Assembly: GCA_025526935.1 (NCBI GenBank)
Contig: JAHLKD010000086.1
Coordinates: 171,370-235,369, forward strand
Length of the DNA: 64,000 nt
Source of the DNA: Cladochytrium replicatum
Lineage: Eukaryota; Chytridiomycota; Chytridiomycetes; Cladochytriales; Cladochytriaceae
Direction of reading: 5' to 3'
The notes under the pieces were generated by a model. It made no database searches, was not told the DNA's origin, and saw only the letters and a program-made list of their open reading frames with translations. How positions within the stretch are numbered: position 1 is the first letter of the stretch; every line of letters starts with the position of its first letter. The position numbers and the translations under genes are program-made. Shown here in pieces: positions 9,295 through 64,000 of the stretch.

Positions 9295-12200
9295 CTAAGG
9301 CATATCCAAATCAACAAAAGCAGACAAGATACAATCAGGAGCTGGAGACAAAACTAACTCATAACCAAGACAGTTTGACCAAATGCGGTTAAGTGCACGA
9401 AGAACAAGAACCCAATGGGAAAAGGCAGGGGAAGGATAAAAAGGCCGTGGTGAAAGCATATCAATTGCAATGTCAAGAGGTAGGCGGGGATCGTCAGGCG
9501 GGCCTAAATCAAAACTAGCAGACAAACTAGCACGCAAATGTAGACACACAGAGACATGGGCACGCGACACTTCAGGGGCATCATGACAGTTCCTACAATA
9601 AGGTCGGGGGTTTGGAAACAGGCGGCCAAGCCGATATAGCAGGAACAAACGAAGACATACTGTTGGGAGATGTTGGTGTGGGGGTAGCAACAAAGGGTGG
9701 CGAAGTTTCAAATTGCGGACAGGGGCAAACGAAACTGCAATTGGTCCATTATGCGCAACAGCTAAAGACTGAAAATGCAACATCAACGGATGAAGTGGGA
9801 GCACAACAGGCATAGGAACAATGAGATCATTGTGACAAGCGGAAAAATAAGGAGATGAACCATAACCGACTGGAGATGACCGATAGAATTGCAACACAGC
9901 AGCTGGTAACAGAGGGCTGGAATCACTAGACCAGCGAGCAAACATACGTGCTTGAAGGTACTTCAGCCTGAACTCAAAAGTAGGAATTTGCGCTAACAGC
10001 AACAAACCAACACGCGAAGTGGTATGGGCTATCGAAAACAGACGACACAGTGCATGATAACAAAAACGCTCGAGTACCTGAAGCTGAGCAGTGGAAGGCC
10101 GAATAAATGCTAAACCAAACTCAAGTGAAGGTCTAATAAAAGACAAAAACAACAACCTGGCAACACGAGGAGCAGACCCACCAAAGTACGAGACATAAGG
10201 TGCAAAAAGATACAATGAGGCACGAGCTTTCTCTAAGCGATGATCAATAGTTGCAGCAAGATCAAACCCTTCAATAGTAAAATAGTGACCAAGGTATCTA
10301 AATGAAACCTCTACAGGGAGGGCAGAGCCATGAAGCTTCAAGGGGGGGGGTAACCGTTGAGAAGATAACACAGCACACTTTGAAGGTGAAAACACAAAAT
10401 GAGAAGCTAAAGCAAAATCTTCACAAATTTTCAATGCACGTTGGGCTTGCTCAGGGGTGGCAGAAAACAAAGCTATGTCATCAGCAAAAAACAACGAATT
10501 GAAAACAGGAGTGTTATAAGAAAACCTAGCAAGATGAGAAGATTCACGACGAAGGAGCTGTGCTAAAGGATTGATGAAAACTGAGTACAAGAACGGAGAC
10601 AAAACAGAACCTTGAAAAAGACCTCGTGGAAGCGAAAACAAATCAGAAGAACGATTCTCTATAACAACCTGAGAAGAACAACGATCAAACATACTCATCA
10701 AAACAGAGATCAAACGGTTTGGAATTCTGGGAAATTGACGAAGACGTTCCCACAAAAGAGGCCTATGCACAGTATCATACGCTGCTTTAATATCTAAGAA
10801 AGTAACACAATAAGGCAGAGCAGTGCGGGAAGCCCGTCGAAGGGTAGCATCTAATGCAAAAACACACTCAACACCTGAACGATTGGCCTGGAAACCAGCT
10901 TGGGCGGGATCAAGTTTACCAACATGAGCTACAAGCATAGGAAGCAGGGTACGCTCAAAGATTTTTCTATCAACATTGGTTAAAGTAATGGGGCGGTACT
11001 GACTAATATCACCAATGGAGCCCTTATTCTTCCAAACAGGTAACAACAAGCCAGCATTCCAGGCAGAGGGCGACAAACCTGAACGGAAAATAGCGTTTGA
11101 AAGTTGAACAAAAAGGATAGCAACATCAGAAGCTAACGGCTTAAATAACTCAGCTGGAATATGGTTTGGGCCAGGAGCAGAGTTGTTTGGGGAAGAACGA
11201 ATAGCACAAACAAAGTCACTAACACTAACTGACACAGAATCATTCAGCGCATGTAGACGAACGTGTTCTGCACTGGCAGAGGATTGTGCAAACTGAGTCT
11301 GATAAACGGAGGCAAAGTGATTGCGATAATGAGATAAAGAGGCAGGATCAGACAATAAACCACTTGCAGCTGAGCGCCGTTGATGACACCTACGCGCGGT
11401 GGAAAGAACTTTGCTAACCTCGGTTAAAGAACTAGGAGAAGAACTAAACATATTGTCGCCAGAAGCCTCTCGAGCTCGCTGAGAAAGAGACCAAGTACGA
11501 AAAGCTTTGACACGCTCACGCGATAGCCGGTCACGCTCCAAGCGGCAATACTCAACTAAACCAGGATCAGGAGCATCACAGGAAGAAACAGCTAAATAGT
11601 GCTTATGAGCAAGTAAGTAGCTCCGTCGCAAGGCCACTAAATGCGGCGGCAACAATGGCAGGGCAGGGCGACGGCGAACTAAACTGGGGGGTCCAATGAC
11701 ACAAGCAGCACATGAAGTAACAAAGGACAAAATAATATCCAATGCAGAGTCAATACATCCCTGTGCAACATCCACAGACATTTGGGCAAAGGCGGGAGCT
11801 TCTAAAATTGGACTGAGTGCAGCATTGACATCAGCAAGGGTGGGATCAAAAAACAAATGTCCCACATCCTCCATTGCTTGAAAGACAGCAGGTTCACGCA
11901 ACAGATGAGCAGCCCAGCGCTTGTGGGGGGGTGCAGCAGAGGGAGCGCTGGCATTGGGAGGAGCAAAAGAAAAAACAGCTGTAACCGGAAAATGGTCAGA
12001 AGCCCAAGGCATAAACTCGCCGTCGGCTAGACGACTATGAACTATGTAAGAAATAGGATCACATTGAAGCAGAGGATTGACAAACAACAAATCGATAATG
12101 GAGTCACCATTGCGAGAAGAAAATGTGGGGTTATGACAGGAAGGGTGCTTAACTAGAGAGAAACTAGCGGCAGAAATAAACTGCTCAAACAACCTACCCC

Positions 12201-12675
12201 TACGATTTGAAGAATGATCACCAGTAGCTAAAAAACGGGCATTGAAATCGCCCAACAAAAGAACAGGGCACGGAGACGACGGGACATGTTGAGGAAGTGA
12301 AGCAATAAACTCTTCAAGGAAGGGGTCCTGAGCAATACCACACGGAGGCAAATAATACCCTCCAACCAAAAGCCCACGATATGTAAACCATAGAGAGGTG
12401 CCACCATAACTAGAAACGAGACGGAAATCAGAAGCTCTACAAAGACTGCGATTGATCAAGACTCCCACACCAGCCCGTCGTGTACCCGATGACCCAGGAG
12501 AAAAACGAGTGTCAAAAATCAAATCTGGAGAAGGCAGCGGGTCTAAAGGAAAAAGGTGTGTTTCAGTCAGGAGCAGAAAAACAATGTGATTTGCGCGCAT
12601 AAAACGAAACAGTGAATCAAGAACTCCAAAGCTCAAATTGCGACAATTGAAGGTACCAACTCGAACACTAATCAT
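9295..12675 (-). CDS. LINE ORF2: AP endonuclease and reverse transcriptase, 1126 aa
   Basis: Polyprotein for target-primed reverse transcription. The N-terminal exonuclease-endonuclease-phosphatase fold shows VGTFNCRNLS, LLTETHL, GVGVLINRSL, LLGDFNARF, DSIIDLLFVN and ASDHFPV, the full set of catalytic blocks (N, E, D/N, D, SDH). The RT domain shows YRPITLTNVDRKIFE, PAQAGFQ, FLDIKAAYDTV, GLFQGSVLSPFLYSVFI and the catalytic FADDIALFS. The C-terminus has a CCHC-like knuckle (CRNCHDAPEVSRAHVSVC). No RNase H domain was recognised. The start ATG overlaps the ORF1 stop by ATGA, suggesting termination-reinitiation. No internal stop or frameshift. The exact clade was not assigned. Confidence 0.95.
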   Translation of the reverse strand: MISVRVGTFNCRNLSFGVLDSLFRFMRANHIVFLLLTETHLFPLDPLPSPDLIFDTRFSPGSSGTRRAGVGVLINRSLCRASDFRLVSSYGGTSLWFTYRGLLVGGYYLPPCGIAQDPFLEEFIASLPQHVPSSPCPVLLLGDFNARFLATGDHSSNRRGRLFEQFISAASFSLVKHPSCHNPTFSSRNGDSIIDLLFVNPLLQCDPISYIVHSRLADGEFMPWASDHFPVTAVFSFAPPNASAPSAAPPHKRWAAHLLREPAVFQAMEDVGHLFFDPTLADVNAALSPILEAPAFAQMSVDVAQGCIDSALDIILSFVTSCAACVIGPPSLVRRRPALPLLPPHLVALRRSYLLAHKHYLAVSSCDAPDPGLVEYCRLERDRLSRERVKAFRTWSLSQRAREASGDNMFSSSPSSLTEVSKVLSTARRCHQRRSAASGLLSDPASLSHYRNHFASVYQTQFAQSSASAEHVRLHALNDSVSVSVSDFVCAIRSSPNNSAPGPNHIPAELFKPLASDVAILFVQLSNAIFRSGLSPSAWNAGLLLPVWKNKGSIGDISQYRPITLTNVDRKIFERTLLPMLVAHVGKLDPAQAGFQANRSGVECVFALDATLRRASRTALPYCVTFLDIKAAYDTVHRPLLWERLRQFPRIPNRLISVLMSMFDRCSSQVVIENRSSDLFSLPRGLFQGSVLSPFLYSVFINPLAQLLRRESSHLARFSYNTPVFNSLFFADDIALFSATPEQAQRALKICEDFALASHFVFSPSKCAVLSSQRLPPPLKLHGSALPVEVSFRYLGHYFTIEGFDLAATIDHRLEKARASLYLFAPYVSYFGGSAPRVARLLFLSFIRPSLEFGLAFIRPSTAQLQVLERFCYHALCRLFSIAHTTSRVGLLLLAQIPTFEFRLKYLQARMFARWSSDSSPLLPAAVLQFYRSSPVGYGSSPYFSACHNDLIVPMPVVLPLHPLMLHFQSLAVAHNGPIAVSFAPVRNLKLRHPLLLPPHQHLPTVCLRLFLLYRLGRLFPNPRPYCRNCHDAPEVSRAHVSVCLHLRASLSASFDLGPPDDPRLPLDIAIDMLSPRPFYPSPAFSHWVLVLRALNRIWSNCLGYELVLSPAPDCILSAFVDLDMP

Positions 12676-14069
12676 TGACGAAGATGGGTTGAGCGAGGCT
12701 GACGCGCAATCCCGCGGGCACTGTCCAGCACAGTTTCCTGAGCATCCATGGGGAGCTGACCACGGACATACAGGAAAATAGCAGGATCAGTAACTGAACT
12801 GAGGATATGTGCATATCTCTTGTGGACAACTTCCCTGACCGCAGCCTCCCGCTGCTCCAAAGGCAGAGTAGAGGCTCGGCGAAGAAAGTCAGGGTTTGAT
12901 TCGTCAGTGGAAGCTTCCTGGGTGGAGAAGTGCGCACGGAGAGCAATTGCGGTTGAGCGAATACAGATAAAGGAAGCAATGTTGCGACCAACGAAACTGA
13001 TGTGGCGGATACCACGCACCACCTCATTGCCCAAGAGAGCCCTCAGCATGGTCCGCACAAAGCCGAGCCGCTGTCTCATGATGTCCTTGATGTACACAGT
13101 GGTCAAATCATCCACACGGGCCTGAAGATCAGCAGGTGGGGAGACCAGCAGCGGAGAGGTCGGAGGATAGAATACGACAGGCCGAGGGCCACGAAGGCTG
13201 ACATTCGAAGTGGGGTCACGACCAGCAAGGGCAGTCCTGACAGCTTCTGTACGAGATTCAGCACTCAGTGTGGGGAGACTCTCAAGCACACGGGCACGGG
13301 CATTGGCAGCAGCAGCGGCATAAGTGCGTGGACCACGAGGTCCACGTGGGGCAGGTCGACTAGACGGGGGGCGAGGGCCAGGAGCACCAGAGTTCCCAAG
13401 ATCGTCCTGAATTGGAGGATTACCATGCAGTTGTCTAGGGGGAAGGCACACAGGCGCAGCCACATCATCATGGCGGGAGACTGGGGCAACTGGAGGTGAA
13501 GGCGAAGGCAGCGGCCTCCCAAAGCGACCCACCAGATCCTCGGCCATATCACGACAAACACTAAAAAATTCAGCAGGAGTGTCCCTCGGCAAATGTGCAA
13601 GCATAGGATCCAGCATCGCCAACGGATCAAAGGTTGCACAAACAGATCGCATCTGAGTGAGAACGACACGGAGATCGGCCAGAGATGCAACACTCGAGGG
13701 AGCAGCCACAGCAGCAAGAACCCGGACACCCGGCAGATGTGATCGGGAACGAGAACGGGAGCGACCACGGGGCAATTCATGTTCAGCAGGTCTTTTGGCG
13801 CGTCGGTCACGTGATCGGAAGTCACGTGATTCGGCATTTTCATCCTCCCCCATATTCACATCATCGGCCCAGTGAATTGGAGAGGCAGGAGCGGAGAATG
13901 GAAGCTGTGGAGCGGAATTTTCAACAGAGGAGGCACGGGGGTGCGAACGGGCCTCAAAAATCACGGTGCCACCAGAAAGTCCATCAGGGGGCACAGCGGG
14001 GGGTGCGGCAGGCGGCGCGGCATGCGGCGCATCAGGCGGCTGCGCATGCGGAGCGCTGGGAGGCGGCAT
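12672..14069 (-). CDS. LINE ORF1, gag-like nucleic-acid-binding protein, 465 aa
   Basis: The frame is open up to 14240, but the region above 14069 only encodes Leu-Ser dipeptides from the CT microsatellite, so the Met at 14069 (MPPPSAPHAQPP) is preferred. The N-terminus is rich in Pro/Ala, followed by acidic and SRD/RSRS-type basic stretches, then an Ala-rich helical segment and a C-terminal block with EAAVREVVHKRYAHILSS that is conserved in LINE copy B. No clear CCHC knuckle was seen in this ORF, unlike many fungal LINE ORF1 proteins. Role inferred from position (first ORF of a LINE) and composition: RNA binding and RNP assembly. Confidence 0.85.
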   Translation of the reverse strand: MPPPSAPHAQPPDAPHAAPPAAPPAVPPDGLSGGTVIFEARSHPRASSVENSAPQLPFSAPASPIHWADDVNMGEDENAESRDFRSRDRRAKRPAEHELPRGRSRSRSRSHLPGVRVLAAVAAPSSVASLADLRVVLTQMRSVCATFDPLAMLDPMLAHLPRDTPAEFFSVCRDMAEDLVGRFGRPLPSPSPPVAPVSRHDDVAAPVCLPPRQLHGNPPIQDDLGNSGAPGPRPPSSRPAPRGPRGPRTYAAAAANARARVLESLPTLSAESRTEAVRTALAGRDPTSNVSLRGPRPVVFYPPTSPLLVSPPADLQARVDDLTTVYIKDIMRQRLGFVRTMLRALLGNEVVRGIRHISFVGRNIASFICIRSTAIALRAHFSTQEASTDESNPDFLRRASTLPLEQREAAVREVVHKRYAHILSSVTDPAIFLYVRGQLPMDAQETVLDSARGIARQPRSTHLRQ

Positions 14070-14074
14070 TGATT

Positions 14075-14078
<4 letters not shown>

Positions 14079-14140
<62 letters not shown>
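14079..14140. repeat. GA/CT microsatellite forming the 5' leader of LINE copy A
   Basis: Nearly pure GA dinucleotides with one 'gata' interruption. On the minus strand this is the CT-rich start of the LINE transcript, directly upstream of ORF1. Confidence 0.9.
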
Positions 14141-14147
14141 GGATGAG

Positions 14148-14204
14148 GCCCGTGTAGCTCAGCGGATAGAGTGTTTGCGTGCTAAGCAAAGGGTCGCCGG
14201 TGGG
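14148..14204 (+). pseudogene. Truncated tRNA-Arg-like fragment cut in the T arm
   Basis: With its 7-bp leader (14141-14198) it matches 14975-15032 except for two bases in the anticodon loop (GTGCTAA instead of CTCCTAA). The acceptor 5' strand, D arm and anticodon arm are present. In the T arm the sequence changes to ggtggga and runs into the T-tract of a minus-strand retroposon tail, so the 3' T stem and acceptor strand are lost. It cannot fold into a tRNA. Confidence 0.75.
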
Positions 14205-14205
14205 A

Positions 14206-14425
14206 TTTTTTTTTTTGAATGTTATAACATGTATTGACAATGCTTAATCAGTACATGTCACCCACGTGTACTTCAACCAAGATTTGGAATCTTCAGTACT
14301 TGGGGAGCCGTGCGAGCCGTAGGAAAGAGGAGCGAAGGCAATGGCGAATCGAAGGAGGTGTGGCGCGGTACTTGCACGTGACACGATATTGCGAGAGATA
14401 TATTTCGTAGGAAATTCGAATCCAG
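14206..14425 (-). mobile_element. LINE copy C, short 5'-truncated 3' end
   Basis: On the minus strand it ends in poly(A) (plus-strand T-tract 14206-14216) and carries the same 25-nt 3'-UTR element (14302-14326) as LINE A. Only about 220 bp are left. It interrupts the tRNA-Arg-like fragment on its 3' side and abuts a tRNA-like sequence on its truncated 5' side. Confidence 0.7.
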
Positions 14426-14981: not shown

Positions 14982-15054
14982 GCCCGTGTAGCTCAGCGGA
15001 TAGAGTGTTTGCCTCCTAAGCAAAGGGTCGCCAGTTCGATCCTGGCCTCGGGCT
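14982..15054 (+). tRNA. tRNA-Arg (anticodon CCT)
   Basis: 73 nt that fold as a cloverleaf: acceptor GCCCGTG/CTCGGGC with one T-T mismatch, D arm with GCTC and GAGT, anticodon stem TTTGC/GCAAA around CTCCTAA, T stem GCCAG/CTGGC around TTCGATC, discriminator T. No intron. The anticodon CCT reads AGG. A near-identical damaged copy lies at 14148. Confidence 0.93.
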
Positions 15055-15121
15055 CATGAATTGCTGTTTATGGTGGGTGCCTCTCAATGAGAAGTCAGCC
15101 TTAATTAAGGTGACAATGTTT

Positions 15122-21312: not shown

Positions 21313-23800
21313 TTGTCGAAGAGTAACCAGCTACTAGACACCGAACCTGCAGCTTATCACAATTCATCAATTGAGGACCCACTTCAGACAAAGAGAAGCC
21401 TAACGCTGAAGCAAACGAAGAAGTCAAAGTTACTGTTACGACTGCTATCGTTGAACATATTGCCATACCTCTTTTTATGTATGGCCGATGCTGGTGAATC
21501 TTCTCGTGCACGGGCTCTGCCGAAGCTTGATGCGACAGCGACCAGTTTTCCTGTCTGGCAATTCTGGTTCCTACAGTGGCTTGAGTTGCAAGATCTCAGG
21601 GCGACAATTAAGAATGACTTTTATGTGACAGCTCCAGATGGGAGTAAGAGTAATCGCAAGGCGTTTGCGGGATTGGTGGAGGCACTACCTGACAAAATGG
21701 TTCAGCGTATGCTGGACATAACAGCCATGAAGGATGCCTGGAAGCGTATCGTGGTTGCACACCTTGCAAAGACAGATGTCACAGTTGCGATGCTGACCAG
21801 GGAACCTGCTGTAGGCAAGAAGAAATCGCATGAGACATGTGCTGCGTTCTGTCAGAGGGCCAGAGGGATCGCTCAATGGTTGAACGCGGTCTGCACTGTC
21901 ACTTTAACAACCATACAAATGCCACACTACTACATAACAGACAGACTGGAGACGTCCAGGAGTTCTTGATGCAGGATGTGGAGAGACCTGTCGGTTATAA
22001 TTGTTAAGTCGATAACAATCATTTACTCGGAAATATGTATTTATGATGGTGGAAACACGTACTTACATGTCTTCTATGTTGTTATCACATATGGTAATAT
22101 TCCTTATAGTACACAATACTTCAGTCCAAGGATTTTTTGTTCCTGTTTAGGAACGAAGATTCTATTGTCTGATTGAAGCACTATTTACTTATTGGGAACA
22201 GTGGTTTAGTAATCAAGCCATGCTACCATATAAGAGTATGCAACGCTGATTGAATGGCGTGTATGTCTCAGGATCAACTCTACTCAATCACGTTCGAACG
22301 AAGTTTACCCTACTCCAACTACTCCGATTCACCACAACGTTCTACGCATCAAAATCCTATCGTGTCGTCGGAGCGCGCAAGATCAAGCAACTGGTCAAGA
22401 CATTCGGCCCCAGTATCTTCTCGGCACTCCTGTTAAAGTCCAACCTCAGCAAGGACACGGTTGTGGCGCGCCGTTAAGCACGGTTTTCGGCATGGCCATA
22501 TTGCAAATGGCCAAGGGCAAAGTTCTGACTCATCCTCAGTACCTTCACCAGCCCGCGGCTCCTATCCAGCAACAGCAACAACCGGTTCAGCACACGACTC
22601 CGACAGATCCCTCGATCACTTCCTTTGGCTGTGTTACGGTCGTCCATGCAGCGTTCGCCAACATCGCCTCCACCTCCAACATTGGGCTGGTTCCTCGACA
22701 GCGGCGCTACCAGTCACATCTGCAAGGATCGATCGGCTTTCTATGATCTGAAAAACATCGACCCTGTTCCGATTCTGGTCGGCAACAACGAGACGGTCGT
22801 GGCTCGTCTGCAAGGAGCTGTTTAGTTCTTGATCGCACCCGATGGGATACCGCACGCCGTTACTCACCGATTTCTTGTATGCCCCAAGTTTCTCCAACAA
22901 TCTGTCTCGGTCAGCGCATCTTACTGCGGTATGCCCCAAGTTTCTCCCACAATATGGTCTCGATCAGCCCATCTTACTGAAGCCGGGTGCTTACCACAGA
23001 TCCTGTAGTGAGCGTAAATGCAGTCTGCGATGTTGCACTGCTACTCGCAGCGGTTGACAATCCAGCGGTGAGAAGAGCGGCGGTCGTCGATTGCCTTTCT
23101 GAAGCTGTCGTTTCCTGTACCCTATCGTATCCGACGGGTCATGGGTGAGAACTTCCTTCACGCCGCAAAAGCGACCTCGCGTTCTGTGGCGGCTCTCCGG
23201 TCTCGACCATTTCCTACCTGCCCCCGTCCAACTCCGCCCTTCTCGCTTCTACACCTGGGCGACCCTGGCAGCGCTCTCCGCTCGATCCGGCATGCTCGCA
23301 CTGAACTCGGCATTCGCTGCGAGAAACCTACCAGCATTGCGATCTACAAAGACAGCCAGGCTTGCATTGCTCATCTGAAAGATCCCAACGGAACGTGGCC
23401 GAACAAAAGCACATTGATATTCGGCTTTACCTTCGCCCACTCTAGTTTCCCTTGCTCAAAGTTTGGAATGATTTGATAATATATAGTGTTTTGTTTCTTT
23501 ATTTGGGTTCTGCGCTGATGTGTGAAAGGGGGAGTTGTTGTTTATCCAGCACTTTGTTTTCTTATTTTCTTATTTCACAAATCGTTGCAAGTTTTCTTTA
23601 ATGGATTCCTTTCTTGTTTTCATGGATTGTTTTCTGTCTTCGATCTTGTTTTCTTGTTTCAAACTCACTTAAGCGATCTTCCCCTTTCATCTTTTCTTCC
23701 TGATCCGGATTTGTAACTTTTCTCCACAACAAACACCTTGTTTGTTCCCGAACAGAACTGAATCAAATTCAAAATATAATTCTAGAATAATAAATTCAAA
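21313..23800 (+). mobile_element. Decayed, internally deleted Ty1/Copia element
   Basis: Plus-strand remnants appear in Copia order. A gag-like frame (21481-21969, MADAGESSRARALPKLDATA, then FPVWQFWFLQWLE and TAMKDAWKRIV) is followed by a protease with WFLDSGATSHICKDRSAFYD (22683-22745), the aspartic DSGA signature in the Copia context. An RNase H piece has SIAIYKDSQACIAHLKDP (about 23332-23390). Integrase and most of reverse transcriptase are absent, so about 3 kb is deleted. Frames are broken by stops. A purine tract (gaaagggggag, 23525-23535) just before a T-rich stretch fits a polypurine tract and the start of a 3' LTR (about 23535-23800). No matching 5' LTR was found. Confidence 0.75.
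22867..22978. repeat. Tandem duplication of a roughly 55-bp segment inside the Copia relic
   Basis: A block starting tatgccccaagtttctcc and ending gcatcttactg is repeated once immediately, with a few differences. Confidence 0.7.
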
Positions 23801-50167: not shown

Positions 50168-51783
50168 ATGGCTGAAACGGATAAGAACGTGGAGACTTGG
50201 AAGGTCAAAAAGCTCATTAAGAGCTTGGAGGCTGCCCGAGGAAACGGAACCAGCATGATCAGTTTGATTATCCCACCGAAGGATCAGATTGCACGGGTTG
50301 TGAAGGTGAGTGCAATGGGAGGAAATTAATGGAACCCTATGCGGGGCATTGCAACCTCTGGAGCTAATTTGATTTTCCAATACTAACGATTATTTTTTCT
50401 AAACTCTACTGGCTGACTCCAAAAGATGCTTGGTGAGAAATATATTGGATTGGGGTTTATTTGAGGTGGTGTTGGGCTTTCGTTTACAGAGAGGGCTGAC
50501 GCTTACTCTCCACATTATCTACAGCGGACGAATACGGCACAGCCAGCAACATCAAGTCTCGCGTGAACCGACAGTCGGTTCTTGACGCGATCGTTTCAAC
50601 ACAAACCCGATTAAAGCTCTACACCAAAGTTCCTCCGAACGGGCTCGTCATTTACTGTGGTACCGTGCTGACAGACGAAGGCAAAGAGAAGAAAGTGACG
50701 ATTGATTTCGAGCCATTCAAACCCATCAACACATCCCTTTACTTGTGCGACAACAAATTCCACACCGAACCCCTCCAGGTTCTTCTCGAATCAGACTCCA
50801 AGTTTGGTTTCATCGTCATGGACGGTAACGGAACTCTTTTCGGCACACTCTCCGGCAACACTCGCGACATCATCCACAAGTTCTCCGTTGACCTTCCGAA
50901 GAAGCACGGACGTGGTGGACAGTCCGCCCTTCGTTTCTCGCGTCTTCGAGAGGAAAAGCGTCACAACTATGTCCGCAAAGTCGCCGAATTAGCTGTACAA
51001 TTCTTTGTCACCCAGGACCGTGTCAATGTCGAAGGTTTGATCTTGGCTGGTTCAGCAGACTTCAAAACAGAGTTGGGTCAGTCCGACATGTTCGACCAGC
51101 GACTTCAGGCCAAAATCGTAAAGGTGGTCGACGTGTCATACGGTGGCGAGAACGGGTTCAACCAAGCGATTGAGCTTTCGGCGGAAATGCTCCAGAACGT
51201 CAAATTTATCCAGGAGAAGAAGCTTATTCAGAAGTATTTCGACGAAATTTCGTTGGACACTGGAAAATACTGCTTCGGTGTGGAGGATACACTCAAGGCG
51301 TTGGATCTCGGTGCGGTCGAAAGGCTGATCGTCTGGGAGAACCTCGAGACTATGCGATACGTCTTGCTCAATCCTCAGACTCAGGAACAGAAGGTCCTGT
51401 ACTTGAGCAAAGAGCAAGAAAAGGACCGGGAGAAGTTTGTAGAGAACGGTGTGGATCTCGAAGTCGTACAAAAGGACCCGTTGATCGAATGGGTAAGCGC
51501 TTTTAATGACGATCAGTGGCCGGTGTTTAACCTTGCTCGGGTTAGTTTGCCGAAAAGTACAAGGACTTCGGCGCCACGCTCGAGTTTGTTACAAACCGAT
51601 CACAAGAAGGTTCACAATTCGTAAAAGGATTCGGCGGTATTGGTGGGCTTCTGCGATACAAGGTAAGAACAGGAACTCGAATTGCCTTGCACTTCCTAAA
51701 ACCGTAATTAATTGCAGGTTGACTTCCAAGTCATGGAGCTTGACGACGATGATGATTACTACGATTCAGATGCCGATCTGTAA
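50168..51783 (+). CDS. SUP45: Eukaryotic translation termination factor eRF1
   Basis: Recognises all three stop codons in the ribosomal A site and triggers peptide release. Five exons join in frame: 50168-50305, 50426-50432, 50525-51492, 51546-51662, 51718-51783, giving 431 aa (family about 437). Domain 1 has [12 protein letters not shown] (NIKS at residues 57-60) and YLCDNKF (the YxCxxxF motif), the stop-codon reading elements. Domain 2 has [10 protein letters not shown] (GGQ about residue 180), needed for peptidyl-tRNA hydrolysis. The C-terminal domain ends in an acidic tail ([13 protein letters not shown]) as in eRF1 that binds eRF3. Exon 2 is only 7 nt and supplies ML and the first base of the Ala codon in the conserved [15 protein letters not shown] run. 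Normal stop-codon reading residues imply the standard code. Confidence 0.97.
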
Positions 51784-52157
51784 ACGAATCTTGTATGTGG
51801 TCACGGTGTGGCAGTCTGACAGATGTTGGCGGGATTTTCTGTTTGTCGCCGATGATGGATTAGTTGTCCTGGATGATGCTTGTTCTTGCTATTGTTCTCT
51901 TTCTTTGTGGTGTAATAAGAAATTGGGCAACTGTTTCAGTATGTCAAGGTCGTTTCACAATATTTACCTGGAACATGCCTCTCCAGTGCAAGTGGTTTCG
52001 AAGTTGTTAACTTTATTTGTTGATTTTTAACAGCGAATCAAAATGAAGTTGCGGATTATGAACCATTACATTATAAATGTACCGAGCAGAAATGAGGGGT
52101 TAGTGTTGTAGAAATGAATTCCTAACAGTTATTCCAAGCCGGAATGTTAATAACATT

Positions 52158-52345
52158 CAGACGGACCGTCCGACGCGAATTTATTAAATGCGGACGGACT
52201 GTCCACCTCGAATTTATTAGCCACGGACCGACCGTCCAACACGTTTTTATTAGCCACGGACGGACCGTCCAACGCGTTTTTATTAGGCGCGGATGGACCG
52301 TCCAACCCATTTTTATTAACCATGGACGGACCTTCCAGATGCAAT
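52158..52345 (+). repeat. 32-bp repeat cluster with CGG-A-CCG inverted repeats, unit 1
   Basis: Six degenerate copies of a ggacggaccgtcc core separated by T/A-rich ttttattag-type spacers. The core is a 6-bp inverted repeat around a single A. This first unit carries more core mismatches than units 2-3 (gactgtcc, gaccgaccgtcc). Confidence 0.85.
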
Positions 52346-53218
52346 TTATTCTGCTTCAACTGTAATTCATGCTATCTCAATCTCTCTTGTAGGTGGGTTT
52401 TTCACTAAGTCTTTTCATTTCATGGGTTAGGCGATGATGCTGTTGGGAGAGACTCCTTTGATTTCGTGGGCTAGAGCATGCTACTGGTGTAGAGAACTGA
52501 TTCTTTGTATTTGTTTGTCCAAAATCTCCACCAACCATACACCTTGATAACAAGCTTCTCTGCCACGCCGGGGGTTATCAGGGCAAGACCTGGCCACAGG
52601 GCCTTCCTGCTATAGATAGTGGATCTCAACTTCCTCTCCGTCCATACCACAGCTTCCACCGCTGCTATTAGTGCAACTTCCACTCTCGTCAAAGCTAGTC
52701 AACAATCTGAAGTATGCTCTCACACGGTACAGTATACACTAGGTGCTCATGGTCCTACCGTTAGATGCAATCTAGCAGCAGTGATGTTTCTGCAATGGAC
52801 TGCAATGAGTTTGTTCAACCAGGTATCACTGAAACCACTCCTAAATCTGCCCCTGGTGAGCTTCTCACTACATGTGAACATACCCAATCTCGACCTTTCT
52901 CACTAAAGGGCTCATGTTTTTTGAGTAGCCGGGCCAATCTCGATCATGTCCATGTTAGACCAGCTGAGCAACCGCATCAAGGAACCCAGGATGGAGTGGA
53001 TCACCAGGGAAGATGGCATGCTCGTGTGCACGCTTTGCACTGGCAAGGACCACAGGGAATAGAAGGAGAGAGATGCTTTGAGGAAGCATTGTCGAGCTTC
53101 CCATCCTGCCAAGGAAGGGTTGGGCACCAATCCTAGAGTTCATACAGAGGAGTTCCTACGCGACACGTTCGAGATTGCGGGCCTAACAGTTATTCCAAGC
53201 CGGAATGTTAATAACATT

Positions 53219-53406
53219 CGGACGGACCGTCCGACGCAAATTTATTAAATGCGGACGGACCGTCCACCTCGAATTTATTAGCCACGGACGGACCGTCCAA
53301 CGCGTTTTTATTAGGCGCGGACGGACCGTCCAACGCGTTTTTATTAGGCGCGGATGGACCGTCCAACCCATTTTTATTAACCATGGACGGACCTTCCAGA
53401 TGCAAT
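53219..53406 (+). repeat. 32-bp repeat cluster, unit 2
   Basis: Six copies; the first four have the perfect core. Identical to unit 3. Confidence 0.9.
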
Positions 53407-54279
53407 TTATTCTGCTTCAACTGTAATTCATGCTATCTCAATCTCTCTTGTAGGTGGATTTTTCACTAAGTCTTTTCATTTCATGGGTTAGGCGATGATG
53501 CTGTTGGGAGAGACTCCTTTGATTTCGTGGGCTAGAGCATGCTACTGGTGTAGAGAACTGATTCTTTGTATTTGTTTGTCCAAAATCTCCACCAACCATA
53601 CACCTTGATAACAAGCTTCTCTGCCACGCCGGGGGTTATCAGGGCAAGACCTGGCCACAGGGCCTTCCTGCTATAGATAGTGGATCTCAACTTCCTCTCC
53701 GTCCATACCACAGCTTCCACCGCTGCTATTAGTGCAACTTCCACTCTCGTCAAAGCTAGTCAACAATCTGAAGTATGCTCTCACACGGTACAGTATACAC
53801 TAGGTGCTCATGGTCCTACCGTTAGATGCAATCTAGCAGCAGTGATGTTTCTGCAATGGACTGCAATGAGTTTGTTCAACCAGGTATCACTGAAACCACT
53901 CCTAAATCTGCCCCTGGTGAGCTTCTCACTACATGTGAACATACCCAATCTCGACCTTTCTCACTAAAGGGCTCATGTTTTTTGAGTAGCCGGGCCAATC
54001 TCGATCATGTCCATGTTAGACCAGCTGAGCAACCGCATCAAGGAACCCAGGATGGAGTGGATCACCAGGGAAGATGGCATGCTCGTGTGCACGCTTTGCA
54101 CTGGCAAGGACCACAGGGAATAGAAGGAGAGAGATGCTTTGAGGAAGCATTGTCGAGCTTCCCATCCTGCCAAGGAAGGGTTGGGCACCAATCCTAGAGT
54201 TCATACAGAGGAGTTCCTACGCGACACGTTCGAGATTGCGGGCCTAACAGTTATTCCAAGCCGGAATGTTAATAACATT

Positions 54280-54467
54280 CGGACGGACCGTCCGACGCAA
54301 ATTTATTAAATGCGGACGGACCGTCCACCTCGAATTTATTAGCCACGGACGGACCGTCCAACGCGTTTTTATTAGGCGCGGACGGACCGTCCAACGCGTT
54401 TTTATTAGGCGCGGATGGACCGTCCAACCCATTTTTATTAACCATGGACGGACCTTCCAGATGCAAT
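54280..54467 (+). repeat. 32-bp repeat cluster, unit 3
   Basis: Same as unit 2. Confidence 0.9.
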
Positions 54468-55340
54468 TTATTCTGCTTCAACTGTAATTCATGCTATCTC
54501 AATCTCTCTTGTAGGTGGATTTTTCACTAAGTCTTTTCATTTCATGGGTTAGGCGATGATGCTGTTGGGAGAGACTCCTTTGATTTCGTGGGCTAGAGCA
54601 TGCTACTGGTGTAGAGAACTGATTCTTTGTATTTGTTTGTCCAAAATCTCCACCAACCATACACCTTGATAACAAGCTTCTCTGCCACGCCGGGGGTTAT
54701 CAGGGCAAGACCTGGCCACAGGGCCTTCCTGCTATAGATAGTGGATCTCAACTTCCTCTCCGTCCATACCACAGCTTCCACCGCTGCTATTAGTGCAACT
54801 TCCACTCTCGTCAAAGCTAGTCAACAATCTGAAGTATGCTCTCACACGGTACAGTATACACTAGGTGCTCATGGTCCTACCGTTAGATGCAATCTAGCAG
54901 CAGTGATGTTTCTGCAATGGACTGCAATGAGTTTGTTCAACCAGGTATCACTGAAACCACTCCTAAATCTGCCCCTGGTGAGCTTCTCACTACATGTGAA
55001 CATACCCAATCTCGACCTTTCTCACTAAAGGGCTCATGTTTTTTGAGTAGCCGGGCCAATCTCGATCATGTCCATGTTAGACCAGCTGAGCAACCGCATC
55101 AAGGAACCCAGGATGGAGTGGATCACCAGGGAAGATGGCATGCTCGTGTGCACGCTTTGCACTGGCAAGGACCACAGGGAATAGAAGGAGAGAGATGCTT
55201 TGAGGAAGCATTGTCGAGCTTCCCATCCTGCCAAGGAAGGGTTGGGCACCAATCCTAGAGTTCATACAGAGGAGTTCCTACGCGGCACGTTCGAGATTGC
55301 GGGCCTAACAGTTATTCCAAGCCGGAATGTTAATAACATT

Positions 55341-55528
55341 CGGACGGACCGTCCGACACAAATTTATTAAATGCGGACGGACCGTCCACCTCGAATTTAT
55401 TAGCCACGGACCGACCGTCCAACACGTTTTTATTAGGCGCGGACAGACCGTCCAACGCGTTTTTATTAGGCGCGGATGGACCGTCCAACCCATTTTTATT
55501 AACCATGGACGGACCTTCCAGATGCAAT
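55341..55528 (+). repeat. 32-bp repeat cluster, unit 4
   Basis: Six copies with changes in copies 3 and 4 (ggaccgaccgtcc, ggacagaccgtcc), shared with unit 5. Confidence 0.9.
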
Positions 55529-56401
55529 TTATTCTGCTTCAACTGTAATTCATGCTATCTCAATCTCTCTTGTAGGTGGATTTTTCACTAAGTCTTTTCA
55601 TTTCATGGGTTAGGCGATGATGCTGTTGGGAGAGACTCCTTTGATTTCGTGGGCTAGAGCATGCTACTGGTGTAGAGAACTGATTCTTTGTATTTGTTTG
55701 TCCAAAATCTCCACCAACCATACACCTTGATAACAAGCTTCTCTGCCACGCCGGGGGTTATCAGGGCAAGACCTGGCCACAGGGCCTTCCTGCTATAGAT
55801 AGTGGATCTCAACTTCCTCTCCGTCCATACCACAGCTTCCACCGCTGCTATTAGTGCAACTTCCACTCTTGTCAAAGCTAGTCAACAATCTGAAGTATGC
55901 TCTCACACGGTACAGTATACACTAGGTGCTCATGGTCCTACCGTTAGATGCAATCTAGCAGCAGTGATGTTTCTGCAATGGACTGCAATGAGTTTGTTCA
56001 ACCAGGTATCACTGAAACCACTCCTAAATCTGCCCCTGGTGAGCTTCTCACTACATGTGAACATACCCAATCTCGACCTTTCTCACTAAAGGGCTCATGT
56101 TTTTTGAGTAGCCGGGCCAATCTCGATCATGTCCATGTTAGACCAGCTGAGCAACCGCATCAAGGAACCCAGGATGGAGTGGATCACCAGGGAAGATGGC
56201 ATGCTCGTGTGCACGCTTTGCACTGGCAAGGACCACAGGGAATAGAAGGAGAGAGATGCTTTGAGGAAGCATTGTCGAGCTTCCCATCCTGCCAAGGAAG
56301 GGTTGGGCACCAATCCTAGAGTTCATACAGAGGAGTTCCTACGCGACACGTTCGAGATTGCGGGCCTAACAGTTATTCCAAGCCGGAATGTTAATAACAT
56401 T

Positions 56402-56589
56402 CGGACGGACCGTCCGACGCAAATTTATTAAATGCGGACGGACCGTCCACCTCGAATTTATTAGCCACGGACCGACCGTCCAACACGTTTTTATTAGGCG
56501 CGGACAGACCGTCCAACGCGTTTTTATTAGGCGCGGATGGACCGTCCAACCCATTTTTATTAACCATGGACGGACCTTCCAGATGCAAT
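56402..56589 (+). repeat. 32-bp repeat cluster, unit 5, about 600-790 bp upstream of the helicase start
   Basis: Same variant pattern as unit 4. It lies in the 5' region of the open helicase gene, so it is the copy best placed to act as a regulatory element. Confidence 0.85.
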
Positions 56590-57189
56590 TTATTCTGCTT
56601 CAACTGTAATTCATGCTATCTCAATCTCTCTTGTAGGTGGATTTTTCACTAAGTCTTTTCATTTCATGGGTTAGGCGATGATGCTGTTGGGAGAGACTCC
56701 TTTGATTTCGTGGGCTAGAGCATGCTACTGGTGTAGAGAACTGATTCTTTGTATTTGTTTGTCCAAAATCTCCACCAACCATACACCTTGATAACAAGCT
56801 TCTCTGCCACCCCGGGGGTTATCAGGGCAAGACCTGGCCACAGGGTCTTCCTGCTATAGATAGTGGATCTCAACTTCCTCTCCGGCCATACCACAGCTTC
56901 TACCGCTGCTATTAGTGCAACTTCCACTCTCGTCAAAGCTAGTCAACAATCTGAAGTATGCTCTCACACGGTACAGTATATACTAGGTGCTCATGGTCCT
57001 ACCGTTAGATGCAATCTAGCAGCAGTGATGTTTCTGCAATGGACTGCAATGAGTTTGTTCAACCAGGTATCACTGAAACCACTCCTAAATCTGCCCCTGG
57101 TGAGCTTCTCACTACATGTGAACATACCCAATCTCGACCTTTCTCACTAAAGGGCTCATGTTTTTTGAGTAGCCGGGCCAATCTCGATC

Positions 57190-60100
57190 ATGTCCATGTT
57201 AGACCAGCTGAGCAACCGCATCAAGGAACCCAGGATGGAGTGGATCACCAGGGAAGATGGCATGCTCGTGTGCACGCTTTGCACTGGCAAGGACCACAGG
57301 GAATACAAGGAGAGAGATGCTTTGAGGAAGCATTGTCGAGCTTCCCATCCCGCCAAGGAAGGGTTGGGCACCAATCCTAGAGTTCATACAGAGGAGTTCC
57401 TACGCGACGCGTTCGAGGTTGCGGGCCTCCCGGCTGCTGGCCAAGAAGGGGTTGACATGGTTCTTCGCATTCTGCAAGGCACTGTCAAGAGAGATAAGAA
57501 CAGCCTCAACAATGACAGTTACGAAGAGGACCTCGCCAACGTACGTGTAGCACCCCTTCACAATGAGAACCCTGTGAACAACCCTCTGATTCAGAGCGCC
57601 ATAGCTACAGGAAACCTTAGGCGTAAGCTTCCTTCATCAGGACTGCTGAAAGCATCTCACCTCTATCATTTCCTATCCTCCAGGCATAGCCTTGGATTTC
57701 TTCATAGCAGAAGAGTTTGGTGTGCTGGTTTGTATCAGCTGTGGCATTCTCGTGGACGCGTCTTCATGCGGGGCCCATGTCCAAAAGTACCACAGTCAGG
57801 TCGACAGGAGCACCCGCCTGATTGCTTCAAGAGCACTTTTGAATCTAAACGTGGTTAACCAGCTTACACCGCTGTGGAACAACAAGGTCATTCTGGAGCG
57901 TATAGACAGAGACAACAACAAGCTTGCCTCATTTACCCCAATCCCAGGAGTCTGTGTACAGGATGGTTTTCAGTGCCGAGGCTGCGGCTATGTGTGTGGC
58001 ACCTTATCTACCTTTCAAAAGCATTGTTGCAAGTCCAATCCAGCAGCAAGAGGTACCTCTCCAAAGCAGGTCAAAGTCCAGAGTATTGTCATGCCGTACT
58101 ATGGACTTCACGGTTACTGGGTCGTGCAAATGGCTCCTCTGGGCACCCTATTCCCCTGATCCATCCTTGCAGCTCACTGAAATGCAGAAGGCAAGCCTGC
58201 AGTTGCTGCTTGCTGACGCATTCACCTCTGTCCCTGCCTTGAAGCTATCTGAAGAGCTTCCTCCCTGGATTCTTGGTTGCGACTTTCACCATGTGGATCC
58301 TAGGCACAGGAGCGGCCAAAAGATCAACGAGCGCATCACGTGGAAAGATGTTGTCGGGGAACAAAACCAGGACATTGGCCTGGGGTTCAACCGCAAGGAG
58401 CTGGGGAAGACTATGGTTGCCTACCACAAGGCACTGCAATCACGGATCATGCGAATGCCCTTCATGGTCAGGCAGGAAATCATGAAGCCCAGGTTTGATC
58501 AGGAGCAGCAAGTCAACGAGAAGCAGAAATTCCGACAGCTTCGGGACGCAACACTGTCACGCTATGCACAGACATGGACCTGTGTTCTGTGGCTGACGAT
58601 CTTGGTGTGGAAGCGCATTATAGAGACACCCTTTGTGCAGATCAGCAGCTCATTGGGAGCATCTTTGGAGCAGTTTGCAAGAATGTTGAAGCAGAAGGTT
58701 GGAAACTCTGGACCTGAAGAACCAACAGGAATACCACTGTTTGATCCAGTAGGGGATCAGGGGCTAGACGTGGCACAGCTGCTGTCTGGCGACACCAATC
58801 ATGAGGACGAGGTGGACTCTGAAGAAAGCTCCAGTGAGTCAGGCGACGAGGATCAGGAAAGTCCGGTGGGGCCAACACATCTTCTCCCTGTTGGATCTGC
58901 GGCAGAGACAGGAGAAGAACTTTTTGCAGCTCTGCTTGCTGTTACAGAGTCTCTCTTCCAAGCAGAAACTGTCATATCAACCATCCCCGAAAAGGTGTTC
59001 AACAATCCCCTTTTCACCTGGTGGGTGATTGATTCGAGAGATGTGCTGGGGGCCTGGAGACCTGCCAACAGCGTGTCCAGAACCGGAGCTGCATTACTCA
59101 GATGGGCGTATGTCACAGGTCTGCACCGGTTTTGGCAGGATTGCAAAGTAACTGGAAGTGTGGAGCCAGAACGTTTAATGCAGATTGGACACTTTACCTC
59201 TCGCTTCAATAGGCACACAATGTCAGGGAGGATCGGGGTAACGTTAGCTTGGATCAAAAAGGTTGCCAGCCAGACAATTGCCACCAATCGCATGCAGTTT
59301 GACTCCCAGGCATGTGCGTACCTGCTGGCGAAGGATACATACTTCAATATGACCACCATAGGGCATGCTTACAGTACCTTAATCAGGGACCTCAGTCTAC
59401 TCATGAAGAAGATCGCTTATCCTCTCCAGCCAGATCAAGAGACATGGTTAACTCTATCGTGGCTCATAGAAAATGCTCCCGATGTTACATGTGAGACAGT
59501 GTCAGACTATGAGTGGGCGCAACACACAACTCTCTCCAGTACGCACCTGCAGCCAGCTTTGGGAGGCATATTGGCATCCTGGGTTAGAAATATTGGGCCA
59601 GTGACGGATCACCATGATCTCTGGCAGCAGCATGGACAGCTGCTGGAATGGAACAAGAAGATTGCAGCAGCGGTTCTGCTTGGATGTGGAGCCCCGCCTC
59701 GTCTCACGGACCTAGTTGCTCAGAATGCAGTCAATTCTTCTGCAGTTCCTCGCTCTGTTTATCATAAGAATGATCGTCTGGTGCTGGTGAGCTACCGGTG
59801 CAAGACAGAACAGATAAAGGAGGAGCGGACAGTGGTTCCGCGCTTTGTTCCAAGGTCACTGGAGAGGCTGCTCATCTTCCACCTCTTTATAGTGCGGAGG
59901 TTGCTGTTCAGTACATTCAAGTGGGTGCAGAAAAAGACATTCCCCGAAGAATGTAGGCGATCCTTGTTCCTGGGAAAGAACGGGACATTGGAATGTTCAG
60001 ATTTGTCTACTACCCTCACAGAGACTTTCCAGAGCATTCTTGGGGTGCGCGTGACATATGCCGAGTACCGTAGATTTGCGAGCAACTTTTCCCAGATTGA

Positions 60101-63100
60101 CTCCCGACTAATGCCTGCACAAGTAAGCACGTTGCTAAGGAAAGGGGACATGGCGAACCTTGGAGAGGGCCATTCGTCACACACAGCAGAGGCAATCTAC
60201 AACCGAACAGGTTCAAGCATCCCTCAGCTTCTGGATGTAGTTGCAGCGGAGCGGCTGAGGATATGTGAGCACTGGTTCCAACGTTGCGGGATAGCAGATC
60301 AGGAACACGAGCAACTGGTCCCAGCAGTGACATCTCCAGAGGCAGTTCTCCGATCAGGGGACAGGTCCAATGTATCTGAGACAGTAAGAGATACGGCAAA
60401 GGTATCAGAGACGGAGACTGTGTTGGGGACCCTGACTGTGTCGGAGGTGTTGGAGACGGTGAATGTCCATGCCACATTCCGTGAAGATTTCCTAGCGAGT
60501 GGGGAGGATGCAGCAAGGGCAAATACTGTTCTGCAAGCCACGGAGCTACTTCGTACTTTTACTGGAAACCGATATGCACACTTCAGATCAGATTCCATCA
60601 GAGAGGCCATCTGCAAGAGTGAAAAACATACTCTACTGGTGTCACCAACTGGGTCTGGAAAGACCGTGGTACCGGCCATCCTGGCAGCGTTGAACACAGC
60701 AGTTCTGCATGTGCTGATATCTCCCCTACGAGCTGTTGCAGCGGAGATCAGAAAGCGACTGGAAGAGCTGCGGATTCCTTGTTACCTGTGGAGTGAAGTG
60801 AAAGCCCACAAGAACAAGCTGAACGCAATAGCTGGTCATCCGGGGCTACTGCTATGTCAAGTAGAGCAACTTGACAATCCCGGCCTGCTTTCCACAGAAT
60901 TGGTCCAAATATGGGAGAACGGGAGGCTGGGGACAGTGATACTGGACGAATGTCATATTCTCCTCACCCAACGTCACTTCCGTGAGGCCATGACCAACGT
61001 CAGGGAATTTGTACACAAGTCAAAGTATGCTAGTCGACCACTCGGAAGTTGTCGCTTTTTGTATATGACAGCCACCATGCCTGTAGTTCTCCAGTCCGCA
61101 TTCGAGCAACAGGTTGGCCTGGGCCGTGGAGAGCTGAGCGTTTGCAGGTCTCCGACCGACCGTCCCGAGTTGGCATATTTTGTTAAGAGTTGGCCATTAG
61201 CGGAAGTGTGCGAGTATGTACGGGCCACATGCCAGCGCACCATCATATATATTGCCAACGAAGAACAACAGGCTCAGACCAAGAGTTTGCTTCTGGGAGG
61301 ACCCAGCGCCAAAGAAGCAGTTCCGACAAACATGCACCCATGCTGTCATCATGGATCGAAAATGTCAGAACTGGACAGAAATGTGGATCTGTGTCGATGG
61401 CTAGGCTGGGAGGGCCTAGATCAGGGGCGCGACCCTATTGCTGCAATGGCGGACATGTCAAGGGTGATGATAGCAACCAGTGGTTTGGGTGCAGCTCTGA
61501 ATGTGGACGACGTTGGCCTTGTAGTTATTGTCAGTTGCTCTGGGATGATGGAGCTCAGTCAGATGGGGGGGAGGGCTGCAAGAAACGGTTCAGTTGGCAT
61601 TGAGATCCTCATTCGGAATGAGGGGTTTATGCATGTACGCACCGAAGAAGAACTATCTCCCGACCGAGCTGCACTACTGGAGTACATGCAAACCAGTTCA
61701 TGCTTGCGCAGAGCAAAGATCACATTCTTGGACGGAAACCCCAATGCACCCGAGTGTCGCAATTCCTGTGCGAAGCTGTGCGGAAACTGTGGCGGACAGT
61801 CCAACCTTTACCTAAAATTGGGGCAGCAACAGGAGACTCCACCTGGTCAGCAATACAGCGGTACCCTCTTTAGCAGCACATCCTCCACAACCACCTCTAC
61901 GCAATCGGACGTATCGCGCGTTCCAGAAACTCCGAGGATCATCAGGACACAAACTCCAAACTACTGGGACTCACCTACTCCACTATATGGGCCTCCTGGT
62001 GCAACGCAGCCTTTAGGGACTTATCACGAAAGACCCTTCCTGATCAAACCCATACCTAATAGGGGGCACATATCTCCAGGTAAGTGTTAGTTGAAAAGAC
62101 AATAAGTTAACCACTAAGGGTTATTGGCAAAATTTGCACTCAGACTCATTCTCGGGCCATCATTTTGGCAAACAACGGTCATCTTCCAGCTCATACACCT
62201 TGAAGAACCAGAAGGATTATGAAGAGAGTCCATCTTCTCGCTCATACACCATGAAGAACCAGATGGATTATGAAGAGAATCCATCTGGTCTGTCTCTGAA
62301 AAGGCCAAAGGTTTGGATCCCCGTTTTGACATGTATGTTATACTTCGCCTGATCATCTTTCAAGTAGTTGCTTCAGCACTCCTCTGTTAAGTCAGATTGG
62401 TCTTGGTCACACCCGGAGGATGGTTCAGTTCAGTGGCTTCCAGCGGATGTTGGGAGCACCCAGTCAAAGTGGAGGACCTTTACTACAGAACACAAACCTA
62501 ATGATTTCCAGGTAGATATGGGTTTGTCACTGTCACAGCAAAATCCACACCCTAAGGTCTTTCGGCCATCTGCAAACCCATTACCTGCTGTCTCCACAGC
62601 TTCAGTCATCCCACACCTTAAGAGAGACTTCACAGCTCTATACCATAGCATCTTCAACCGTAGTAGGTGTATTGTGTGTGAGACTTTCCAAGGTTTCCCC
62701 TGTGGTTGCCAGAATGCGGTGCAGACTGTTGCAAGTTCCTCAGCAACACGGCGTGACCATCGTTGCTGGGTCTGCGGAGAACCGGGACATCGTCGGTCTG
62801 ACTGTGCTGCAAAGAAGGCGTTAGACAACTTCGCAAAATTCCGACCTAACCAGTTATGCATCTACTGTCTCCTGCGGCGGACACAACAGCATCATTCCTC
62901 AAACGAACCGTTCTGCACCACGGACAATAAACGAGCCGCTCTTCACTGCTATTGTCGTCTCCACTACGAAAGCGCCAAGAGTAATGACGTTTCGTCCTGG
63001 CTGAAGCGGAGATATAGGAGTCAAGAGGTAGTAGATGCTTTGAGGCAGTTAGACAGTTGGGTTGAGTGGGGTATCCAGACCTACAGTATTCACGATTTTA

Positions 63101-63186
63101 GCAACAAGTGCAACATAGCTGGTGGGAATATATGTCGGGCACTTGTTCTGGTGTTCGATATACTTCTTTCAGAGGAGGGCTGTTAG
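57190..63186 (+). CDS. Telomere-linked RecQ-type helicase with N-terminal zinc fingers, recombinase-like middle and C-terminal zinc knuckle (1918 aa)
   Basis: Five exons join in frame: 57190-57622, 57684-58123, 58173-62079, 62144-62310, 62377-63186. Near the N-terminus are C2H2/C2HC-like fingers (CTLC then HCRASH; VCISCGILV; FQCRGCGYVCG then FQKHC). A middle region (about residues 800-965) has GAPPRLTDL and GHSSHTAEAIYNR, an R...HxxH...Y pattern like tyrosine recombinases. The helicase core shows SPTGSGKT (Walker A, about 1116), DECH (about 1215), TATMP, and QMGGRAARNG (motif VI, about 1421), then a Cys cluster (CRNSCAKLCGNC) as in RecQ zinc-binding domains. A CCHC knuckle (CWVCGEPGHRRSDC, about 1780) is near the C-terminus. 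Members of this type sit next to telomeres in many fungi. The first Met is at 57190 within repeat unit 5; an upstream exon is possible. The 49-bp intron at 58124-58172 is short but restores the frame. Confidence 0.85.
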
Positions 63187-63346: not shown

Positions 63347-63858
63347 CTAAGTGTTTTCTTCTGTGTTTAAAAAGACACCTTTGTGCATTTTGAATACAAG
63401 GCACACCCAGAATTCGCGTGGGCTAGTTCCCCACTTCTCCAGCATATGTTCAAGGGCGCATGATCTGATGAAAAGAATGTCACCACTCTTGAAAGGAATC
63501 TTAACTCCGAGATCAGGAAGCACGGTCCTCCCACCCTTGAATCTGCCAAAGCACACCATCGCACACCAACCATCTGGAATGTCCTTGAGATCCCGGTGTC
63601 GGACTATCCATTGATTGAGAACAACCACAAGCATTGCAAAAGTCTTGTTCGTATGGTTGTCCCAGAGTAATTTGCCGCTAGGGTTCAGCCTCCCCATCGC
63701 CGCACTGTACCGCCCCGCCATATCTGGGTCAAGGCGCCTGAATAATGCCTGGACAGTCTCAGCGAGGTCAAGAATATGTTGGTGGCGTAAGAACTCAACA
63801 ACCGCATCTGTTTTTCCGCTGCTGCCGGGGAATGTTTCAGCGGAGGGGCACCTCCCGC
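63347..63858 (-). pseudogene. TET/JBP-like 2-oxoglutarate/Fe(II) dioxygenase, 5' end cut off by the telomere
   Basis: A minus-strand frame stays open from the telomere junction to a stop at 63347 (about 170 codons). It contains HRDLKDIPDGW (HxD iron ligands), CFGRFKGGRTVLPDLGVKIP, SGDILFIRS, LEHM (second iron His) and SPREFWVCLVF (2-oxoglutarate-binding Arg), in the order of the TET/JBP-like dioxygenases that are expanded in fungi, often with transposons. The coding frame continues, without a Met in good context, right to the base where telomeric repeats begin (63859). The N-terminal part is therefore missing. The first internal Met (63721) would give 124 residues that still hold all catalytic residues, but promoter and start are lost. 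Convergent with the helicase gene. Confidence 0.75.
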
Positions 63859-64000
63859 TAGGGTTAGTTAGGGTTAGTTAGGGTTAGTTAGGGTTAGTTT
63901 AGGGTTAGTTAGGGTTAGTTAGGGTTAGTTAGGGTTAGTTAGGGTTAGTTAGGGTTAGTTAGGGTTAGTTAGGGTTAGTTAGGGTTAGTTAGGGTTAGTA
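63859..64000 (+). repeat. Telomere, 10-bp repeat TTAGTTAGGG
   Basis: About 14 head-to-tail copies of gggttagtta to the end of the sequence, with one variant having an extra T (around 63897). The G-rich strand runs toward the window end, as expected for a right chromosome end. Confidence 0.97.

Follow-up and report, generated by a model that had tools for sequence, protein, structure and literature searches.

Helicase genes of the kind considered here lie at the chromosome ends of several fungi, as far as the available part of one published account extends (PMC5576322). Their descriptions, in the available parts, give little beyond a helicase core and an OrsD domain. The present locus lies toward the end of the stretch of DNA analyzed here (64,000 nucleotides; hereafter, the window), closes 0.7 kb short of a telomere repeat (63186 versus 63859), is preceded by a tandem array with a period of 1061 bp, and had been taken, in an earlier sequence-only reading, for a helicase fused to a recombinase-like domain. 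If its middle block is a tyrosine recombinase (YR), mutating a single tyrosine would test whether such genes move or rearrange themselves. By its recognized parts, the gene is a telomere-linked helicase (TLH) of a known kind; the recombinase-like block is plausible but unproven; and the array clearly derives from the gene's own 5' end.

The five-exon gene model (Table 1) removes four putative GT..AG introns of 61, 52, 64, and 66 bp, placed from the sequence, and the joined product of 1917 aa contains a single stop, at its terminus. The largest exon lies inside a frame of 1388 codons (57924-62090; protein P0001), and the residue numbers of the full protein, which are used below unless stated otherwise, equal the P0001 numbers plus 207. 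Models employing a donor at 57545, or an exon end at 62080 together with an acceptor at 62189, were set aside in favor of better splice sites.

Table 1. Features of the chromosome end and of the helicase gene, with positions in the window.
Feature	Position	Strand	Remarks
Four tandem 1061-bp units	52121-53181, 53182-54242, 54243-55303, 55304-56364	+	
Gene's own upstream region, fifth array register	56365-57189	+	six palindromic 33-bp subrepeats
OrsD/RecQ-like telomere-linked helicase gene	57190-63186	+	inferred five-exon model, 1917 aa
Inferred exons of helicase gene	57190-57622, 57684-58120, 58173-62079, 62144-62310, 62377-63186	+	GT..AG splice sites
C2H2-like finger, exon 1	57271-57348	+	by eye
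OrsD domain PF12013 (formerly DUF3505), exon 2	57695-58036	+	E=9.9e-14; 1.3e-12 in joined model
Candidate YR catalytic block	59502-60323	+	residues 734-1007 of full model
Candidate YR residues	R800 (codon 59700), R923 (60069), H957 (60171), Y966 (60198)		lysine K834 or K839
SF2 RecQ-like helicase core, DEAD + Helicase_C, exon 3	60609-61589	+	DEAD E=3.6e-14
CCHC zinc knuckle PF00098, exon 5	62764-62805	+	E=6.7e-5
Tet_JBP-like dioxygenase frame without start, running into telomere repeat	63350-63877	-	E=3.2e-8
Telomere repeat, unit TTAGTTAGGG	63859-64000	+	

The gene belongs to the known OrsD plus RecQ-like TLHs, and the chromosome end on which it lies is fungal-type. Specifically, a RecQ-like SF2 core and an OrsD domain occur in the same inferred gene with a telomere within a few kb, and the assignment was made because OrsD and a helicase that matches no zinc-binding or RQC family together resemble published subtelomeric helicase families; the label "fungal-type" likewise follows from OrsD and the published helicase cassettes. 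OrsD itself was found in none of 14 prokaryote control genomes. Within the gene, the OrsD and DEAD matches both exceed their cut-offs. The OrsD match comes from the frame 57692-58159 and the CCHC match from the frame 62368-63186, and the Pfam search of exon 3 also returned ResIII (4.3e-7), while Helicase_C in a trimmed stretch of that exon reached 0.0047, below its cut-off. The NCBIfam matches to exon 3, namely DpdF (1.9e-11) and recQ (1e-6), both fall far below their equivalog cut-offs. None of the RecQ zinc-binding, RQC, or HRDC families, one of which would mark a canonical RecQ protein, was found in the helicase protein at E<=10 (Pfam), and a Cys cluster after the helicase core was seen by eye. 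The finger of exon 1 was likewise recognized by eye and had no Pfam match, either in its separate frame or in the joined model. The earlier description of a subtelomeric helicase with several zinc modules therefore holds, with OrsD, DEAD, and CCHC matched by profile, the finger read by eye, and the telomere downstream; the DUF3505 search that it had recommended did recover PF12013.

Comparable genes have been described in other fungi. In Colletotrichum higginsianum, subtelomeric repeat families such as DHX_G198 combine OrsD (DUF3505) with DEAD/Helicase_C next to telomeres and, in the available part of their description, no zinc-binding or RQC domain was found (PMC5576322), much as is the case here. 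The same part of that description mentions no stacked truncated 5' copies, no C-terminal CCHC knuckle, and no YR-like block such as is proposed for the present gene (PMC5576322). In Ustilago maydis, UTASa is a RecQ-like helicase beside telomere repeats, and UTASb is a shorter element carrying OrsD, a core sequence, or both, located near telomere repeats or 5' of UTASa (PMC10532341). As far as the portion of that work at hand describes them, however, neither element includes a tandem array of the helicase upstream region or a recombinase-like domain (PMC10532341). The Y' elements of yeast are also helicase-coding repeats at chromosome ends (PMC4522978, in the part available), whereas at this locus the tandem units consist of truncated 5' ends, with no telomere repeats separating them.

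The block between OrsD and the helicase core is most likely, to judge from its residues and predicted models, a diverged, Crypton-like tyrosine-recombinase domain. It offers candidates for the Arg I, Lys, Arg II, GH, and +9 Tyr of Cryptons and other YRs, the Lys being placed at a predicted beta hairpin. The end of this series belongs to GHSSHTAEAIYNR, located at residue 749 of the 1388-aa frame (956 of the full model). Y966 follows the GH histidine, H957, by exactly 9 residues, the same distance as in a XerD-like recombinase (L027), whereas Arg II and the His are separated by 34 residues in the candidate block versus 23 in that protein. A well-spaced Arg, an "HxxH" pair, and a Tyr had been reported for this region, and the residues are indeed there, but in YR terms they form GH-x8-Y, and the box that should read HxxR is AEYR (920-923), with its His replaced by Ala. 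Similar R..EL, YxK, and GH.H.A..Y strings are presumably carried in the same region by the helicases of Fusarium-type fungi.

The placement of these residues was assessed with a profile of 61 bacterial YRs, for which 90 loci were reduced to 68 non-redundant frames and 7 were then dropped, the longest open frame of the locus having a poor match to the profile or none. In a full-length alignment, five of six catalytic columns were occupied by R800, K839, R923, H957, and Y966, a result that was obtained with none of 231 decoy proteins and with 3 of 300 shuffles; four columns were matched by 7 of the decoys and 29 of the shuffles. A spacing pattern composed after the sequence had been seen (R..[DE]-hydrophobic, Lys, Arg, GH, and Tyr at +9) occurs in 24 of the 61 real YRs and in none of 440 E. 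coli open frames, and it arose in 33 of 20000 shuffled versions of the 1388-aa frame and in 8 of 20000 of the 274-aa block. Predicted structure points the same way. Two AlphaFold models calculated without an alignment are of low confidence (mean pLDDT 38.3 and pTM 0.34 for the first; 37.2 and 0.25 for the second), and both show the order helix-helix-three strands-helices, which is the order of elements in YRs. In these models, R800 starts the helix before the strands, K834 ends strand 2 at the turn between strands 2 and 3, R923 lies in a helix, and Y966 lies in the helix after the GH loop. As a side observation on recombinase loci, lambda int (L005-L011, L014, L016) was 100% identical in assemblies of Streptomyces, Leeuwenhoekiella, Oceanobacillus, and other unrelated bacteria, probably as a result of lambda contamination.

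Score-based tests gave a different picture. Neither the large exon nor the block alone was listed with any YR family in Pfam, PHROGs, or NCBIfam, and sequence searches of the PDB returned no YR and nothing else relevant. An HMM of the 61 YRs gave the block -2.4 bits, a value that 269 of 2000 shuffles equaled or exceeded and that the reversed block surpassed (-0.9); the full 1388-aa frame had no match to it. The hhalign score of the block (14.6) was reached by 30 of 150 decoys, drawn from the 231 that served in the residue-placement test, by 10 of 50 shuffles, and by the reversed block; when hhalign was run in global mode, scores at least as high came from 137 of the 150 decoys and 41 of the 50 shuffles. 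The search with tyrosine-recombinase profiles suggested at the outset gave no family match and, for our own profile, scores not above those of decoys. In comparison to Cryptons and other YRs (PF00589 and the 61 bacterial members), the block differs in having no profile-level similarity, no HxxR His, and a fusion to OrsD and a helicase. With the first, low-confidence model, none of the Foldseek matches reached E<=0.001, and the 50 matches listed include no YR, a result that means little given the low confidence of the model. When the block was compared with phage records by tblastn, 33 were hit, all from Klebsiella phages, at a best E of about 1 and over the GH...Y end; the 20 matches listed are mostly annotated as SbcD-like or exonuclease subunits or as hypothetical proteins, with one "recombinase," and they were too weak to be used as evidence. 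A search for close relatives with six exact 8-residue patterns in each of the genome contig and viral contig collections found none.

The motif was also sought on its own. An exact DNA pattern for GHSxHxAxx[IV]YxR found five stretches in viral contigs. Judged by their reading frames, none is a YR: a single kind of phage protein accounts for four of them, of which two have identical frames, and the remaining one falls within a frame of 189 codons. The phage protein looks, from its sequence, unlike a YR and appears to resemble a PD-(D/E)XK nuclease. The string alone is therefore not diagnostic of a YR. Such occurrences, along with the uniformly negative scores, fit the main competing explanation, namely that the gene is an ordinary TLH with an unrelated helical domain in its middle, that the Arg/His/Tyr pattern is due to chance or convergence, and that the array reflects simple tandem duplication of subtelomeric sequence. 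The rarity in controls of a placement on five of six catalytic columns and the fit of the predicted strand/helix order to a YR argue against it, and we regard it as a genuine possibility that falls well short of even.

A diverged recombinase remains the reading favored by residue placement, spacing pattern, and secondary-structure order, and it is weakened by the failure of every score-based test and by the missing HxxR His; it is in this qualified form that the proposed fusion of a helicase to a recombinase-like domain stands. On balance, the sequence and the models suggest that the block probably has the YR fold, while activity as a recombinase is rather doubtful on the residues present. The domain may have been retained to bind DNA or to exchange strands, and it may no longer be a full recombinase. 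No report of a YR domain in telomere-linked helicases or OrsD proteins was found in the open-licence literature; a paper there on fungal fusions between host genes and transposons mentions neither OrsD nor telomeres.

The array in front of the gene is built of tandem copies of the gene's own 5' end. Each unit consists of the 825 bp upstream of the helicase gene plus its first 236 coding bases (78 codons) and is truncated at the 3' side. A repeat search recovered five copies at 1061-bp spacing, the fifth register of which (56365-57425) is the gene's own 5' end. The array had been called adjacent to the gene, and this understates the relationship, as the period runs into exon 1; it had also been proposed as product or substrate of the protein, and it does derive from the gene's own 5' end, but there is no support for its having been made by the protein. 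Over their 1061 bases, units 1-4 differ from one another at 1-9 positions and from the gene's own copy (56365-57425) at 11-16. In each of the four, codon 39 is TAG, and the repeated coding part shows three additional differences from the gene that all four units have in common. The first splice donor (57623) lies outside the unit, and thus the upstream units cannot be alternative first exons of the inferred model. No further copies of the element were detected in window positions 1-52120 by blastn or tblastn, and no report of an array of a subtelomeric helicase's own upstream region was found in the open-licence literature.

The joints are informative as to how the units arose. All four internal joints are identical and read GCGGG|CCTAACAG, the left flank of the array reads GAATT|CCTAACAG, and the gene itself reads GCGGG|CCTCCCGG; comparison of joints, left flank, and gene reveals a CCT common to both sides of the breakpoint. 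The simplest history that we infer from these sequences would begin with one 3'-truncated copy of the upstream region and gene start being duplicated in tandem at the 3-bp CCT overlap. The truncated unit would then have taken the stop at codon 39, and the stop-bearing unit would finally have expanded to four by unequal exchange. A short dyad, CGGG-CCT-CCCG (57422-57432), contains the array breakpoint; CCTCCCG is found again at 63851-63857, next to the telomere start, which may be chance. The array is a tangible record of subtelomeric change, in which tandem copying of a gene's upstream region and start has placed 30 palindromic sites near a telomere, and it provides a feature to compare with the remaining chromosome ends of this genome.

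The palindromic sites occupy the same place in each 1061-bp unit (52159-52336 in the first). Every one of the five copies contains six matches to GGACGGACCGTCC with at most one mismatch, at exact 33-bp steps, for a total of 30, of which 13 are exact; elsewhere on the + strand of the window there is none at up to one mismatch and one at up to two. The 13-bp core is an inverted repeat of the form 6+1+6, and the 33-bp spacing corresponds to about three helical turns. With thirty sites at this spacing in front of a single gene, the sequence most likely serves as a regulatory array or as one that nucleates heterochromatin. Just before the palindromes in each unit, an AT-rich inverted repeat, GAATGTTAATAACATTC, was also seen by eye.

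How the protein and the array might be connected depends on the reading of the middle block. An active Crypton-like element, in which the recombinase excises circles that reinsert at CCT and the array represents non-autonomous truncated copies made by the protein, would account for the YR-like residues and for a joint that is the same in four of four cases with CCT common to both ends. Microhomology gives a 3-bp overlap equally well, however, and the stop and three other differences common to all four units fit one founding duplication; moreover, the HxxR His is missing, and neither an empty site nor a second copy was seen, with no copy in window positions 1-52120. We therefore consider such an element improbable. 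It is hardly less of a long shot to suppose that the fungal OrsD-type TLHs in general might be Crypton-descended recombinase-helicase fusions, with this one making or maintaining promoter arrays by recombination at CCT and thereby multiplying finger-bound palindromic sites beside the telomere.

The best explanation, which we hold with slightly better than even confidence, is a TLH gene with a probable diverged Crypton-like YR block and an array derived from the gene's own 5' end. In line with what has been published on TLH genes and Y' elements, the fingers may hold the protein on subtelomeric DNA and the helicase may power the exchange of strands, or copying, from one chromosome end to another, which would spread the cassette and may protect the ends. 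A selfish or telomere-maintaining role, as had been suggested for the locus, would be consistent with the published views of such genes.

The chromosome end itself deserves brief description. The last 150 bases of the window contain 12 exact TTAGTTAGGG units and one with an extra T. The unit is a 10-mer rather than TTAGGG and resembles that of Yarrowia, whose telomere unit is TTAGTCAGGG. The minus-strand Tet_JBP-like frame matches its family at 33.4 bits, just under the cut-off of 34.9, and displays by eye the HRD, later H, and R expected for a 2OG dioxygenase. Since this frame enters the telomere repeats without a start, the chromosome end looks healed or recombined inside a Tet_JBP-like gene; that is, a TET/JBP-type gene fragment appears to lie directly at the chromosome end, with its 5' part truncated by the telomere repeat. 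On the other side, an eRF1 gene (50563-51624) is situated just inward of the 1061-bp array. Farther inward, a Copia-type gag fragment (21313-21969; PF14223, 2.2e-5) falls just under its cut-off, and a non-LTR retrotransposon occupies 9295-14240 on the minus strand (RVT_1, 2.9e-30), its preceding ORF having no Pfam match. The only tRNA gene found in the window, Arg-CCT (14982-15055), lies about 0.7 kb beyond this retrotransposon.
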